A stretch of DNA of 37,311 bases, taken from NCBI GenBank assembly GCA_016871255.1, contig VFZH01000021.1:1-37311 (forward strand), written 5' to 3'. Made by a program: the position numbers and the translations under genes. Shown here piece by piece: positions 29,006-33,928 of the stretch; the first letter of the stretch is position 1, and every line of letters starts with the position of its first letter. The notes beneath the pieces are model-generated. The model worked only from the letters and a program-made list of their open reading frames with translations, did no database searches and had not been told where the DNA came from. The stretch is from Acidimicrobiia bacterium. GTDB taxonomy: Bacteria; Acidobacteriota; Vicinamibacteria; Vicinamibacterales; UBA2999.

Positions 29006-31189
29006 TTAGTACGCGAGCAGATCGCGGGCGGCTGCGACGACCTTGGCGGTGGTCGGCAGGTGCGCCTCTTCGAGCACGGGCGCGAACGGCACCGGTGTGT
29101 CGGCGGCGGCGACGAGCTGGACCGGGGCGTCCAGGTCGCCGAACGACCGGCGCACGATCTCGGCGACGATCGTCGTCCCGAAGCTGCCCGTTCGCGGCGC
29201 CTCGCACGTGACCAGGGCCCGGCTGGTCTTCGCGACCGATGCGGCGATCGTGTCGATGTCGAGCGGCAGCAACGTGCGCAAGTCGATGACCTCGACCGAC
29301 GCGCCGTCCTCCTGTTCGAGCCTGTGGGCGGCTTCGAGCGCCCGGATCGTCTGCGAGCCGAACGAGACGATCGTGAGGTCGGTGCCCTCCCGGGCCACCC
29401 GTGCCTTGCCGATCGGCACGACGTAGTCGCCTTCCGGCACGGGCAGGTTCAGCTCCTGCGGCAGCTTCTCGGGCTTGAACCGGTAGTAGTTCTTGTATTC
29501 GAGGAAGAGGACCGGGTTTCCGTCGCGCACGGCGGCCTTCAGCAGCCCCTTGGCATCGAACGCGGTGATCGGGGCCACGATCTTCAGCCCGGGTGTGGAG
29601 GCGAACCACGACTCGGGGTTCACCGAGTGGTACATGGACGTGTTCGTCGCCCAGCCCGAGGGGAAGCGGAACACGATGCCGACCGGGCCCATGTCGCGAA
29701 CCTGCTGCGTGGCCGCGTAGTTCACGATCATCTTGAAGGCTTCCGACGCGAAGTCGGCGTACTGGAACTCGACGATCGGCCTGAGACCGGTCAGGACCGA
29801 GCCGAGCGCGAGGCCCACGAAGCCCGCTTCGGCGATCGGCGCGTCGATGATGCGGCGCTGGCGGAAGGTGGCGTCCTTCCGGTTCCACGCCTCGTTCCAG
29901 TCGAGGCCGTCGTAGCGCTTCGAGAAGCCTTCGGTGACCTTGAAGGCGCCGTTCGACACGCCGATGTCCTCGCCGATCATGTAGACGTTCGGGTCGCGGT
30001 CCAGTTCCTCCATGAGGGCTTCACGGATCGCCTGGTGGTAGGTGATGGTGCGCCCGGCGGCCGGAGGCGCCGCGAGGGCGTTCTCGTGTGCGGGCGACGG
30101 CGCGAACACCTCCGACTCGATGTCGACCGGGACCGGCGCGGGGCTCTGCTCGCTCTTGATGGCGGCGGCCCGGACCTCGTCCGCGATCCGCCTGTCGAGC
30201 TCGCGGAGATCGTCGACGGTGGCGATGCGCTGCTTCAGGAGCCGGTCGCGGAACGTGGCGATCGGGTCCTTGGCCTTCCACGTGGCGAGCTGCTCGGCCG
30301 GCACGTACGAGGTGAAGGGGTCGGCCAGCGAGTGCCCGTCCATGCGCATGGACACGGCCTCGATGATGGAGACGCCGCCGGTCTCGCGGACGCGCGCCAG
30401 CGCCCGGCTCACCGTGTCGTAGACGGTGACGACGTTGGTGCCGTCAATCCAGTACCCGTCCACGTCGCGCCCGTAGCCGAGCGAGCGGAGCGCGAGCGTG
30501 GGGGTGGCGTATTCGAGCCGGTTCGGCGTGCCGAACGCCCACTGGTTGTTCTCGATCAGCAGGACGAGCGGAATGCGCATCGCCGAGGCGATGTTGAGCG
30601 CTTCGTGGACGTCGCCCGTGCTCGTGGTGCCGTCCCCGACGAACGCCAGCGCCACGCTGTCGCGGCCCTGGTACTGCTCGCCGAACGAACAGCCGACGCC
30701 GAGCGGGATCAGGGTGCCGAGGTGGCTGATCAGGCCGACGACGCGGGATGGCTGGTGCCCCATGTGCAGGCTGCCGTCCCAGCCGCGCGACAGGCCGTCC
30801 ATGCGCCCGCAGGCCTGCGCGATCGCGCGGGACGGCGGCACGCCGCGGACCAGGAACGCCGCGAGGTCGCGGATGGCCAGCGTCGTCCAGTCGCCCGGCT
30901 GCAGCGCCATCGAGGCGCCGACAGCCGTGGCCTCGTTGCCGGTGCACGGGAGGTGTTTGCCGAGGGCGATGCCCTTGCGCGACATCTTCACGATCTCGAT
31001 GTCGGTGGCCCGCGTCAGCGCCATGAAGTAGTAGCACTGGAGCAGCTGATCTCGGGAGAAGCCGTCGATGACCGGGGCGGGCAACCACGACAACCCGCTG
31101 ACGGACACGTGCAGCGAGCGCTGCTCGAGATCGCGCGTGACGTCGAGCTGCTCGAGCTCCGGATAGATGTCGGCAAGGGTGCTGATCAT
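29006..31189 (-). CDS. 2-oxoacid dehydrogenase E1 component, alpha and beta subunits fused
   Basis: 727 aa from ATG 31189; alpha: GDGTTSTGDVHEALNIASAMRIPLVLLIENNQWAFGTP (TPP motif); beta: EALMEELDRDPNVYMIGEDIGVSNGAFKVTEGF...APIAEAGFVGLALG. Confidence 0.9.
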   Translation of the reverse strand: MISTLADIYPELEQLDVTRDLEQRSLHVSVSGLSWLPAPVIDGFSRDQLLQCYYFMALTRATDIEIVKMSRKGIALGKHLPCTGNEATAVGASMALQPGDWTTLAIRDLAAFLVRGVPPSRAIAQACGRMDGLSRGWDGSLHMGHQPSRVVGLISHLGTLIPLGVGCSFGEQYQGRDSVALAFVGDGTTSTGDVHEALNIASAMRIPLVLLIENNQWAFGTPNRLEYATPTLALRSLGYGRDVDGYWIDGTNVVTVYDTVSRALARVRETGGVSIIEAVSMRMDGHSLADPFTSYVPAEQLATWKAKDPIATFRDRLLKQRIATVDDLRELDRRIADEVRAAAIKSEQSPAPVPVDIESEVFAPSPAHENALAAPPAAGRTITYHQAIREALMEELDRDPNVYMIGEDIGVSNGAFKVTEGFSKRYDGLDWNEAWNRKDATFRQRRIIDAPIAEAGFVGLALGSVLTGLRPIVEFQYADFASEAFKMIVNYAATQQVRDMGPVGIVFRFPSGWATNTSMYHSVNPESWFASTPGLKIVAPITAFDAKGLLKAAVRDGNPVLFLEYKNYYRFKPEKLPQELNLPVPEGDYVVPIGKARVAREGTDLTIVSFGSQTIRALEAAHRLEQEDGASVEVIDLRTLLPLDIDTIAASVAKTSRALVTCEAPRTGSFGTTIVAEIVRRSFGDLDAPVQLVAAADTPVPFAPVLEEAHLPTTAKVVAAARDLLAY

Positions 31190-31400: not shown

Positions 31401-31429
31401 TTGGGTTTTTCCGGGCCAGATGGTAGAGT
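31401..31429 (+). promoter_or_regulatory. putative promoter of cysDN leader (TTGGGT-N17-TAGAGT)
   Basis: -10 31424-31429, 9 nt before leader ATG 31439; -35 only partly consensus. Confidence 0.45.
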
Positions 31430-31438
31430 CTTGGGGTG

Positions 31439-31519
31439 ATGGTCGCCGCAGCCGGCTGCGCGTGTTGTTGTTGCCCCAGCGCTCTGCTGGTTCCGGGGCC
31501 CTTCCGCACATTCAGGTGA
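31439..31519 (+). CDS. polycysteine leader peptide (26 aa) of cysDN attenuator
   Basis: ATG GTC GCC GCA GCC GGC TGC GCG TGT TGT TGT TGC CCC AGC... = MVAAAGCACCCCPSALLVPGPFRTFR*; 5 Cys in 6 codons, directly upstream of a terminator and sulfate-assimilation genes. Not in the ORF track. Confidence 0.85.
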   Translation: MVAAAGCACCCCPSALLVPGPFRTFR

Positions 31520-31560
31520 GCAGGCCCGCTCGACAGGCGAGCGGGACACGACGAATCGGA

Positions 31561-31592
31561 AGCCCGGGACGAGCCGCCCGGGCTTTTTTTTT
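31561..31592 (+). terminator. intrinsic terminator (attenuator) between Cys leader and cysD
   Basis: AGCCCGGG-ACGAGCCG-CCCGGGCT followed by 9 T (31584-31592). Confidence 0.92.
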
Positions 31593-31615
31593 GCACGGCC
31601 TCCGTGTGATCGACG

Positions 31616-32596
31616 ATGACTGCACTGGCACGAACGACCCGGCCACCCGCACCAGCGATGGCGTCCCCGCGTGACCCTGGGACGCCCCCGTCACCTCTCC
31701 GCCTCGACCACCTCCAGCGCCTGGAGGCGGAGAGCATCCACATCATGCGCGAGGTGGCGGCCGAGTTCGAGCGGCCGGTCATGCTCTATTCGATCGGCAA
31801 GGACTCGTCGGTGATGCTGCGGCTCGCCCAGAAGGCGTTCCATCCGGCGCCGCTGCCGTTCCCGCTGCTCCACATCGACACCAGCTACAAGTTCCGCGAG
31901 ATGATCGAGTTCCGCGACCGGATGGCGGCGTCCGTGGGCGCCCGACTGATCGTGCACACCAACCGTGAGGCGCTCGCCGACGGGACCGAGCCCTTCGCCG
32001 TGGGCACGCAGCGCTGCTGCGGGCTGCTGAAGACGAAGGCGCTCCTCGACGCACTGCGCGAAGGCGGGTTCGACGCCGCGTTCGGGGGCGCCCGCCGCGA
32101 CGAGGAGCGGTCGCGCGCCAAGGAGCGCGTCTTCTCGCTGCGCGACGCGCACGGACAGTGGGACCCGAAGCGGCAGCGCCCGGAGCTGTGGAACCTGCTC
32201 AACAGCCGCCTCAATCCCGGCGAGAGCATCCGCGTGTTCCCACTGTCGAACTGGACCGAAATCGACATCTGGCAGTACATCCACGCGGAGAACATCCCGG
32301 TCGTGCCGATGTACTTCGCCCGCGATCGCGAGGCGATCGTGCGCGGCGACTCCATCATGATCCGGGAGCAGTCGTTCGTGCCGCTGCTGCCGGGCGAGCG
32401 GCCGCAGATCGTCAAGTGCCGCATGCGCTCGCTGGGCTGCTCGCCCTGCACGGGCGCCATCCGCTCCGATGCCGACACGGTCCCGAAGATCATCGAAGAG
32501 CTGGTGGCCGTGCGCCAGTCCGAGCGCCAGCTGCGCGTCATCGACCACGACCAGGACGGGTCGATGGAGATCAAGAAGCGCGAGGGGTACTTCTAG
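31616..32596 (+). CDS. cysD: sulfate adenylyltransferase subunit 2
   Basis: 326 aa; [76 protein letters not shown]. Confidence 0.96.
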
Positions 32597-33928
32597 GTGG
32601 CGCCCGGGGGCGGCCTCGACCCGTCATCGTCCGGCCTGCTGCGCATCTGCACCGCCGGCAGCGTCGACGACGGGAAGAGCACGCTGATCGGACGGCTGCT
32701 GCACGACTCGCAGGCGATCTACGAGGACCAGATCCGGTCCGTCGAGGCGGCCTCGAAGAGCCGGACGGCCGGGCCGATCGACTTCTCGCTGTTCACCGAT
32801 GGGCTGAAAGCCGAGCGCGAGCAGGGCATCACGATCGACGTGGCGTACCGGTACTTCGCCACGGCGCGGCGCAAGTTCATCCTCGCGGACACGCCGGGCC
32901 ACGAGCAGTACACCCGGAACATGGCCACCGGCGCGTCGACCGCCGAGCTCGCCATCCTGCTGGTGGACGCCCGCCACGGCGTCCGGGAACAGTCGCGCCG
33001 TCATGCGCGCATCGCCCGCCTCCTGGGCATCACCCACTTCGTGGTGGCCATCAACAAGATGGACCTGGTGGACTTCGACCGGGCCGTGTTCGACGGCATT
33101 GCCGCCGAGTTCGCCCGGATCCTCGACGGGGCGAGCGCCGTCACCATCCCGATGAGCGCCCTGATGGGGGACAACGTCATCACCCGGAGCCAGCGGACAC
33201 CCTGGTACGAGGGCGTCAGCCTGCTCGAGCACCTGGAAGCCGTGGACGTGGACACCGATGTCACGGGCAAGGCCTTCCGCTTTCCGGTGCAGATGGTGCT
33301 CCGGCCGCACCACGAGTTCCGCGGCTTCGCCGGGCAGATCCAGTCTGGCGTGATTCGGGCGGGCGACCAGGTCACCGTCTGGCCTGGTGGCCGGTCGACG
33401 GCCGTCAGCCGCATCGTCAGCTGGGAAGGGGATCTCCCCTCCGCGTTCGCGCCGATGTCGGTGACGCTGGTGCTCGAGGACGAAATCGACATCAGCCGGG
33501 GCGACATGCTCGTCGCCGGACCGGTCCAGGTGGGGCAGCGCTTCACCGCGGACATCGTGTGGATGGACGAGCGGCCGCTCGAGTCGACGCGGGTGTACCT
33601 GCTGAAGCACACGAGCCGGATCGTGACGGCGGAAGTGGACCGCCGTCTGGAGCTGAACGAGATCGGGCCGGCAGCGGTGCGGACGTCACGGCCGTTGATC
33701 TTCGACGCGTACCGCGAGAACCGGGCGACCGGGAGCTTCGTGCTGATCGACCCGGCCACCAACTTCACCGCCGGCGCCGGGATGATCGGCGCCTTCGAAG
33801 CCGAGGCTGCGGCAGCAGGCCACGAAGGCGCGGCCGAGCGGCTGGCGCGCCTGGCCCGGCGCGCGGGGAGCGACCGCGAGGCCGTCGACGCGGTGCGCGT
33901 GGCGCTCGAAGAGATTCTGGGGAAGTAG
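32597..33928 (+). CDS. cysN: sulfate adenylyltransferase subunit 1 (GTPase)
   Basis: 443 aa from GTG; GSVDDGKSTLIGRLLHDSQAIYEDQ, DTPGHEQYTRNMATGAS, NKMDLVDF; no C-terminal APS kinase domain. Confidence 0.95.
   Translation: MAPGGGLDPSSSGLLRICTAGSVDDGKSTLIGRLLHDSQAIYEDQIRSVEAASKSRTAGPIDFSLFTDGLKAEREQGITIDVAYRYFATARRKFILADTPGHEQYTRNMATGASTAELAILLVDARHGVREQSRRHARIARLLGITHFVVAINKMDLVDFDRAVFDGIAAEFARILDGASAVTIPMSALMGDNVITRSQRTPWYEGVSLLEHLEAVDVDTDVTGKAFRFPVQMVLRPHHEFRGFAGQIQSGVIRAGDQVTVWPGGRSTAVSRIVSWEGDLPSAFAPMSVTLVLEDEIDISRGDMLVAGPVQVGQRFTADIVWMDERPLESTRVYLLKHTSRIVTAEVDRRLELNEIGPAAVRTSRPLIFDAYRENRATGSFVLIDPATNFTAGAGMIGAFEAEAAAAGHEGAAERLARLARRAGSDREAVDAVRVALEEILGK

Follow-up and report, generated by a model that had tools for sequence, protein, structure and literature searches.

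A predicted polycysteine leader-peptide attenuator ahead of cysDN and its recurrence in Acidobacteriota

Introduction

Many soils are dominated by Acidobacteriota, a phylum whose gene regulation is scarcely known. In one soil member of the phylum (genome of 3.9 Mb in 243 contigs), a short ORF with a run of cysteine codons and a GC-rich hairpin followed by a T run precede the sulfate adenylyltransferase genes cysD and cysN. The question that this locus raises is whether ORF and hairpin together form a switch that senses cysteine supply, and whether such a switch is peculiar to one operon. The window analysed here is the whole 37,311-nucleotide stretch, contig C21, and the comparison extends to relatives across the class Vicinamibacteria and the phylum.

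Organization of the locus

The elements of the locus follow one another in this order:

31401..31429, + strand: predicted sigma-70-type promoter (-35 TTGGGT 31401-31406, 17-nt spacer, -10 TAGAGT 31424-31429; score 7/12)
31436..31519, + strand: leader peptide ORF (M)MVAAAGCACCCCPSALLVPGPFRTFR, start GTG 31436 or ATG 31439, stop TGA 31517-31519
31457..31474, + strand: putative regulatory Cys codons TGC GCG TGT TGT TGT TGC (CACCCC), read from the sequence
31473..31499, + strand: possible 1:2 "protector" hairpin, GCCCC 31473-31477 with GGGGC 31495-31499 (-11.3 kcal/mol)
31490..31513, + strand: predicted antiterminator 5' arm, segment 2 (31490-31497, 31501-31506, 31510-31513; duplex -27.0 kcal/mol)
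31525..31545, + strand: predicted 8-bp spacer hairpin CCCGCTCG-ACAGG-CGAGCGGG (-16.2 kcal/mol), enclosed by the antiterminator
31553..31570, + strand: predicted antiterminator 3' arm, segment 3, overlapping the terminator 5' arm in the folding
31558..31592, + strand: predicted intrinsic terminator, GC-rich stem with core AGCCCGGG/CCCGGGCT and 9 T at 31584-31592 (-20.5 kcal/mol)
31616..32596, + strand: cysD, sulfate adenylyltransferase small subunit, putative regulated gene (TIGR02039, 454.9 bits, cut-off 396.6)
32597..33928, + strand: cysN, sulfate adenylyltransferase large subunit, putative regulated gene (TIGR02034, 531.2 bits, cut-off 336.1)

The first-pass annotation had placed a 26-codon ORF at 31439-31519, its cysteine codons at 31457-31474 and a terminator with an 8-bp stem and 9 T at 23 nt ahead of cysD. 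All of these placements are exact, the in-frame GTG at 31436 being an equally likely start and the 23 nt running from the end of the T run to the cysD ATG at 31616. The leader carries five Cys codons and the gene behind it is cysD. Upstream gene order, the spacer hairpin at 31525-31545, a weak 1:2 hairpin and a longer antiterminator were absent from that annotation. The upstream neighbour is divergent, a fused pyruvate dehydrogenase E1 gene on the minus strand (29006 to ~31189), in which the alpha and beta subunits form one ORF (29006-31189). With this neighbour divergent and no + strand gene in the region just upstream, no + strand message needs the terminator at 31558-31592.

The divergent gene bears on the plainest alternative, that an ordinary intergenic terminator happens to follow a chance Cys run and regulates nothing. 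Runs of TGY codons turn up repeatedly in this GC-rich genome: four consecutive TGY codons occur at 26 places, and a reversed-pattern control at 32, so the Cys run alone is no proof. Unlike the run alone, the Cys-run ORF and the terminator together exceed chance. A covariance model built from 19 leaders, the window leader among them, has a single match in this genome, the window leader itself (E = 2e-16); the next, unrelated match has E = 0.29. Given also about 100 recurrences of the leader before sulfur and cysteine genes, and the co-evolving pairings described below, a chance origin is hardly credible. A second TGTTGTTGTTGT in the same genome (contig C102) was judged not to be a leader, and no leader was found in the stretch examined upstream of its cysH-siroheme-sulfite reductase genes.

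A predicted near-leaderless start

Only 6 nt separate the -10 element from the GTG (9 nt from the ATG), so the window leader mRNA is probably leaderless; judged by the transcription start predicted from this spacing, the ORF is at least near-leaderless. Two points count against the window copy, a promoter that scores only 7/12 and the absence of a Shine-Dalgarno sequence, and translation of the ORF is a prediction. Among 122 leaders, a promoter scoring at least 8/12 lies 4-10 nt (mostly 6-10) before a start codon in 59 (48%), against 0.5% at shifted positions. These 59 promoter-abutting leaders start with GTG (44), ATG (11) or TTG (4), and SD-like 4-mers are present in 15% of leaders. Leaderless genes have been predicted to make up 9.7-19.4% in Acidobacteria (PMC3160421).

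Mutually exclusive predicted RNA structures

The candidate antiterminator had first been drawn between CCGGGGCCCTTC (31493-31504) and GAAGCCCGG (31559-31567). Its positions stand but its extent does not: the folded antiterminator is longer, pairing 31490-31513 with 31553-31570 through three helices (31490-31497:31563-31570, 31501-31506:31557-31562 and 31510-31513:31553-31556), with a duplex energy of -27.0 kcal/mol. When the RNA is folded with a ribosome on it, the proposed switch is reproduced: a ribosome on the Cys codons favours the antiterminator and one on the stop codon the terminator. For any modelled Cys codon, the free RNA behind the ribosome, ending at 31573, is predicted to fold into the antiterminator; moving the ribosome to the stop codon yields the terminator (-20.5 kcal/mol). 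Once the whole RNA is available, the terminator usually has the lowest energy, which makes antitermination dependent on co-transcriptional folding, as in the classical model.

The switch would work as follows. Transcription would begin near 31436, and a ribosome would load on the 5' end of the emerging RNA without delay. Under a shortage of Cys-tRNA, it would stall on 31457-31474 and leave 31490-31513 free to pair with 31553-31570; the antiterminator would form ahead of the emergence of the terminator 3' arm, the polymerase would enter cysDN and sulfate activation would rise. When cysteine is plentiful, the ribosome would reach the stop at 31517 and cover or disrupt segment 2, perhaps assisted by the 1:2 hairpin. 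With segment 2 blocked, the terminator at 31558-31592 would fold and transcription would end ahead of cysD. Termination, leaderless translation, stalling and cysteine as the signal are all steps that we infer.

The pairings were examined across relatives, locus by locus. Over 119 leaders the segment 2:3 duplex, which joins the 3' part of the ORF to the terminator arm, has a median energy of -32.1 kcal/mol and a median z of -2.36 against dinucleotide shuffles, with z < -1.64 in 75% of them; in the window z = -3.3. Own arms pair more strongly than swapped arms (means of -31.9 and -27.2 kcal/mol; Wilcoxon p = 1.4e-16, overstated because the leaders are related, with a consistent direction). These comparisons argue that the two antiterminator arms co-evolve. 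Column-wise pair counts for helix 2:3 in the gapped MAFFT alignment are not above shuffles; they are uninformative because the flanks of segment 3 are misaligned, and per-locus duplex tests were therefore used in their place. In cysD-type leaders, covariation is seen in the terminator helix and in the 1:2 helix. Over the 119 loci the 1:2 helix is not significant, and its support is thus limited to the cysD-type leaders.

The same leaders bear on the possibility of translational or Rho-dependent attenuation in the mycobacterial style, in which the position of the ribosome on the upstream ORF would decide how open the cysD start is, or whether Rho loads, with the hairpin playing no part. Mycobacterial leaderless polycysteine ORFs ahead of cysteine genes do lack conserved terminators and have been termed translational attenuators. 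Here, however, 119 of 122 leaders have a GC-rich hairpin with a T run at a fixed spacing from the end of the ORF (median 31 nt past the stop), and segment 2 co-evolves with the terminator arm, which makes this alternative improbable.

A metabolite-binding riboswitch or T-box with a Cys ORF by chance would equally place a terminator ahead of an amino-acid gene. All Rfam families nevertheless score below threshold: with Rfam 15 the leader has no match at threshold, the best sub-threshold matches being unrelated sRNAs, and no conserved aptamer-like core was found in the leader alignment (A1). This explanation, too, has next to no likelihood. The favoured reading is a ribosome-mediated transcription attenuator that senses Cys-tRNA charging: the element is real and conserved, and very probably it responds to cysteine.

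Conservation and variation in relatives

Upstream regions of CysD homologues from relatives were scanned, a comparison that the first-pass annotation had suggested. The Cys-run ORF and the terminator are kept, and the remaining peptide and stem sequences vary. Where cysD is first in its operon, most close relatives have a hypervariable Cys-run peptide followed, about 30-45 nt past the stop, by a GCCCGGG...CCCGGGC-T terminator. Where TauE or a cysteine synthase-JAB fusion precedes cysD, the leader stands before that gene instead; it moves with the operon promoter, to tauE or to cysK-JAB. No Cys-run ORF with terminator was found ahead of cysD in about 20 non-acidobacterial loci examined.

The peptide itself could be imagined as a functional small Cys-rich protein, binding metal or active in redox, that is co-transcribed with sulfur genes. 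Small Cys-rich proteins are capable of binding metals. Against such a role, outside the Cys run the peptide differs greatly from locus to locus, in length as well as in sequence, its conserved codons fall on the pairing arms, and the number of Cys codons ranges from 3 to 9 (usually 4-8). A functional peptide is accordingly very improbable.

In the leader runs of the 122 loci, that of the window (31457-31474) included, UGU is strongly preferred over UGC, the reverse of the preference in the genes themselves: TGT makes up 67% of leader Cys codons (397:191 TGT:TGC) against 14% (83:499) in the downstream genes, and the window genes have 1:13. Leaders found without the model show the same preference (71 of 111, 71:40). 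Avoidance of structure and slower decoding are possible causes.

A probable regulon of sulfur and cysteine genes

In the class of the window, the covariance model matches at E <= 0.01 in 124 of 193 genomes, with up to five matches per genome, and is without a match in the other 69; there are about 100 strong copies. A Cys-run ORF is present at 95 of 101 strong matches (E up to ~1e-5), and 85 of these 95 have a gene of sulfate or sulfite assimilation, siroheme synthesis, sulfur transport or cysteine synthesis within 1.3 kb. The model was trained on Cys codons, and Cys ORFs among its matches are thus partly built in; independent evidence comes from matches outside the class and from the genes downstream. 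Among 396 genomes sampled from the phylum, strong matches are confined to the class save one outlier (L233), ahead of a CysH-like gene. Ten of the 11 weak matches outside the class are bare terminators with no Cys-run ORF, and the eleventh (L246) is a leader with CTCCPCCC ahead of a YeiH-like gene. Ten genomes of other groups gave weak model matches only.

Downstream functions were assigned by seed matching and by Pfam/NCBIfam. First genes behind the leaders are of the siroheme synthase type (then uroporphyrinogen methyltransferase and sulfite reductase), CysH, DUF2061 with CysH, CysD and cysteine synthases; others are TauE, Cons_hypoth698 (YeiH), an NMT1-type binding protein, RimK-like ATP-grasp and AhpC/TSA-domain proteins.

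Several of these neighbours merit a description of their own. A cysteine synthase with a fused C-terminal Prok-JAB domain lies behind a Cys leader and ahead of cysD (L262:1-3501; also L252 and L264); it resembles the mycobacterial CysM/Mec+ pair, in which the proteins are separate. A small DUF2061 membrane protein gene lies between leader and cysH at eight loci (L131, L135, L138, L154, L158, L161, L163, L169). A RimK-like ATP-grasp family (GIYYEHPDWFRPLFAELDRRG) recurs behind Cys leaders (L185, L189, L200, L212, L256, L260) and may have a role in thiol or peptide metabolism. AhpC/TSA-domain (TlpA-like) proteins are found in the same position at L208, L219 and L256, and a phosphate-selective porin O/P family gene follows the leader at L199:1-3501.

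Beyond the class, several Terriglobia cysD loci have Cys-run ORFs (e.g. CCACCC) that begin shortly after promoter-like sequence, and their terminators have different stems. Leader-terminator complementarity is significant in several of them, among about ten loci, with some arms chosen by hand; for both reasons the evidence is weaker here than at class level. A covariance model built from five Terriglobia leaders (R2) matches in 4 of 396 genomes, one match being strong, and was set aside as too narrow.

On the favoured reading the window leader is part of an Acidobacteriota regulon that is apparently undescribed so far. Sequence and comparison show a Cys-run ORF, the promoter-start spacing, a terminator, exclusive pairings, arm co-evolution and linkage to cysteine and sulfur genes. 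The initial observation is thereby confirmed and its interpretation is supported and largely holds: the attenuator ahead of the cysDN operon stands, and the single-operon scope gives way to a regulon in related genomes. We incline, somewhat, to a broader view, that most assimilatory sulfur metabolism in Acidobacteriota is under a phylum-wide regulon of leaderless polycysteine transcription attenuators, replacing or working beside a CysB/CymR-type protein regulator, in which stems turn over fast, the underlying logic persists and selection favours the rare codon UGU within the Cys run. Such a regulon would take in cysDN, cysH, siroheme synthesis and sulfite reductase, cysteine synthases, sulfite/sulfur transporters and perhaps thiol-related ATP-grasp and thioredoxin-like proteins.

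A 2010 survey remarked that hardly any predicted attenuator of Acidobacteriota had been given a function (PMC2965389). The open-access literature, to which our search was confined, turned up no description of a cysteine attenuator from this phylum. The window leader provides a precise, testable function for one such attenuator, and its relatives suggest cysteine attenuation with an intrinsic terminator at regulon scale. The leader signature also offers a way to find genes under cysteine control, some of them as yet unexplained, the ATP-grasp family for one.

Comparison with known attenuators

The class of mechanism is old. The leader shares with the trp, his, leu and ilv attenuators a peptide with many residues of the amino acid that governs the operon, and an antiterminator that competes with an intrinsic terminator; it differs from them in the amino acid, cysteine, in its near-leaderless start and in a 1:2 segment that lacks general support. 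The first-pass annotation had supposed that a terminator-based version outside Actinobacteria may be undescribed. This was too broad, and "first outside Actinobacteria" is too strong, because a Cys attenuator of the terminator type has already been predicted for cysS in Rhodobacterales, the uORFC-8-2 motif (PMC8632094). Both systems are predicted to combine Cys codons with terminator-based attenuation. uORFC-8-2 has two tandem Cys codons and a conserved AUG, and serves cysteinyl-tRNA synthetase in alpha-proteobacteria (PMC8632094), whereas the Acidobacteriota leaders usually have 4-8 Cys codons and precede sulfate-assimilation and cysteine-synthesis operons.

Cys leaders lacking terminators have been predicted in Actinobacteria (Seliverstov et al. 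2005, PMC1262725), and were shown in mycobacteria, as polycysteine leaderless ORFs, by Canestrari et al. 2020 according to papers that cite it. The mycobacterial ORFs have in common with the Acidobacteriota leaders the runs of Cys codons, a near-leaderless upstream ORF, the cysteine/sulfur operons and presumed sensing of Cys-tRNA. The mycobacterial leaders carry no conserved terminator hairpins and are described as attenuators of a translational or Rho type, whereas the leaders described here, from another phylum, have an intrinsic terminator and a competing antiterminator. The likeness links the two groups either by convergence or by old ancestry.
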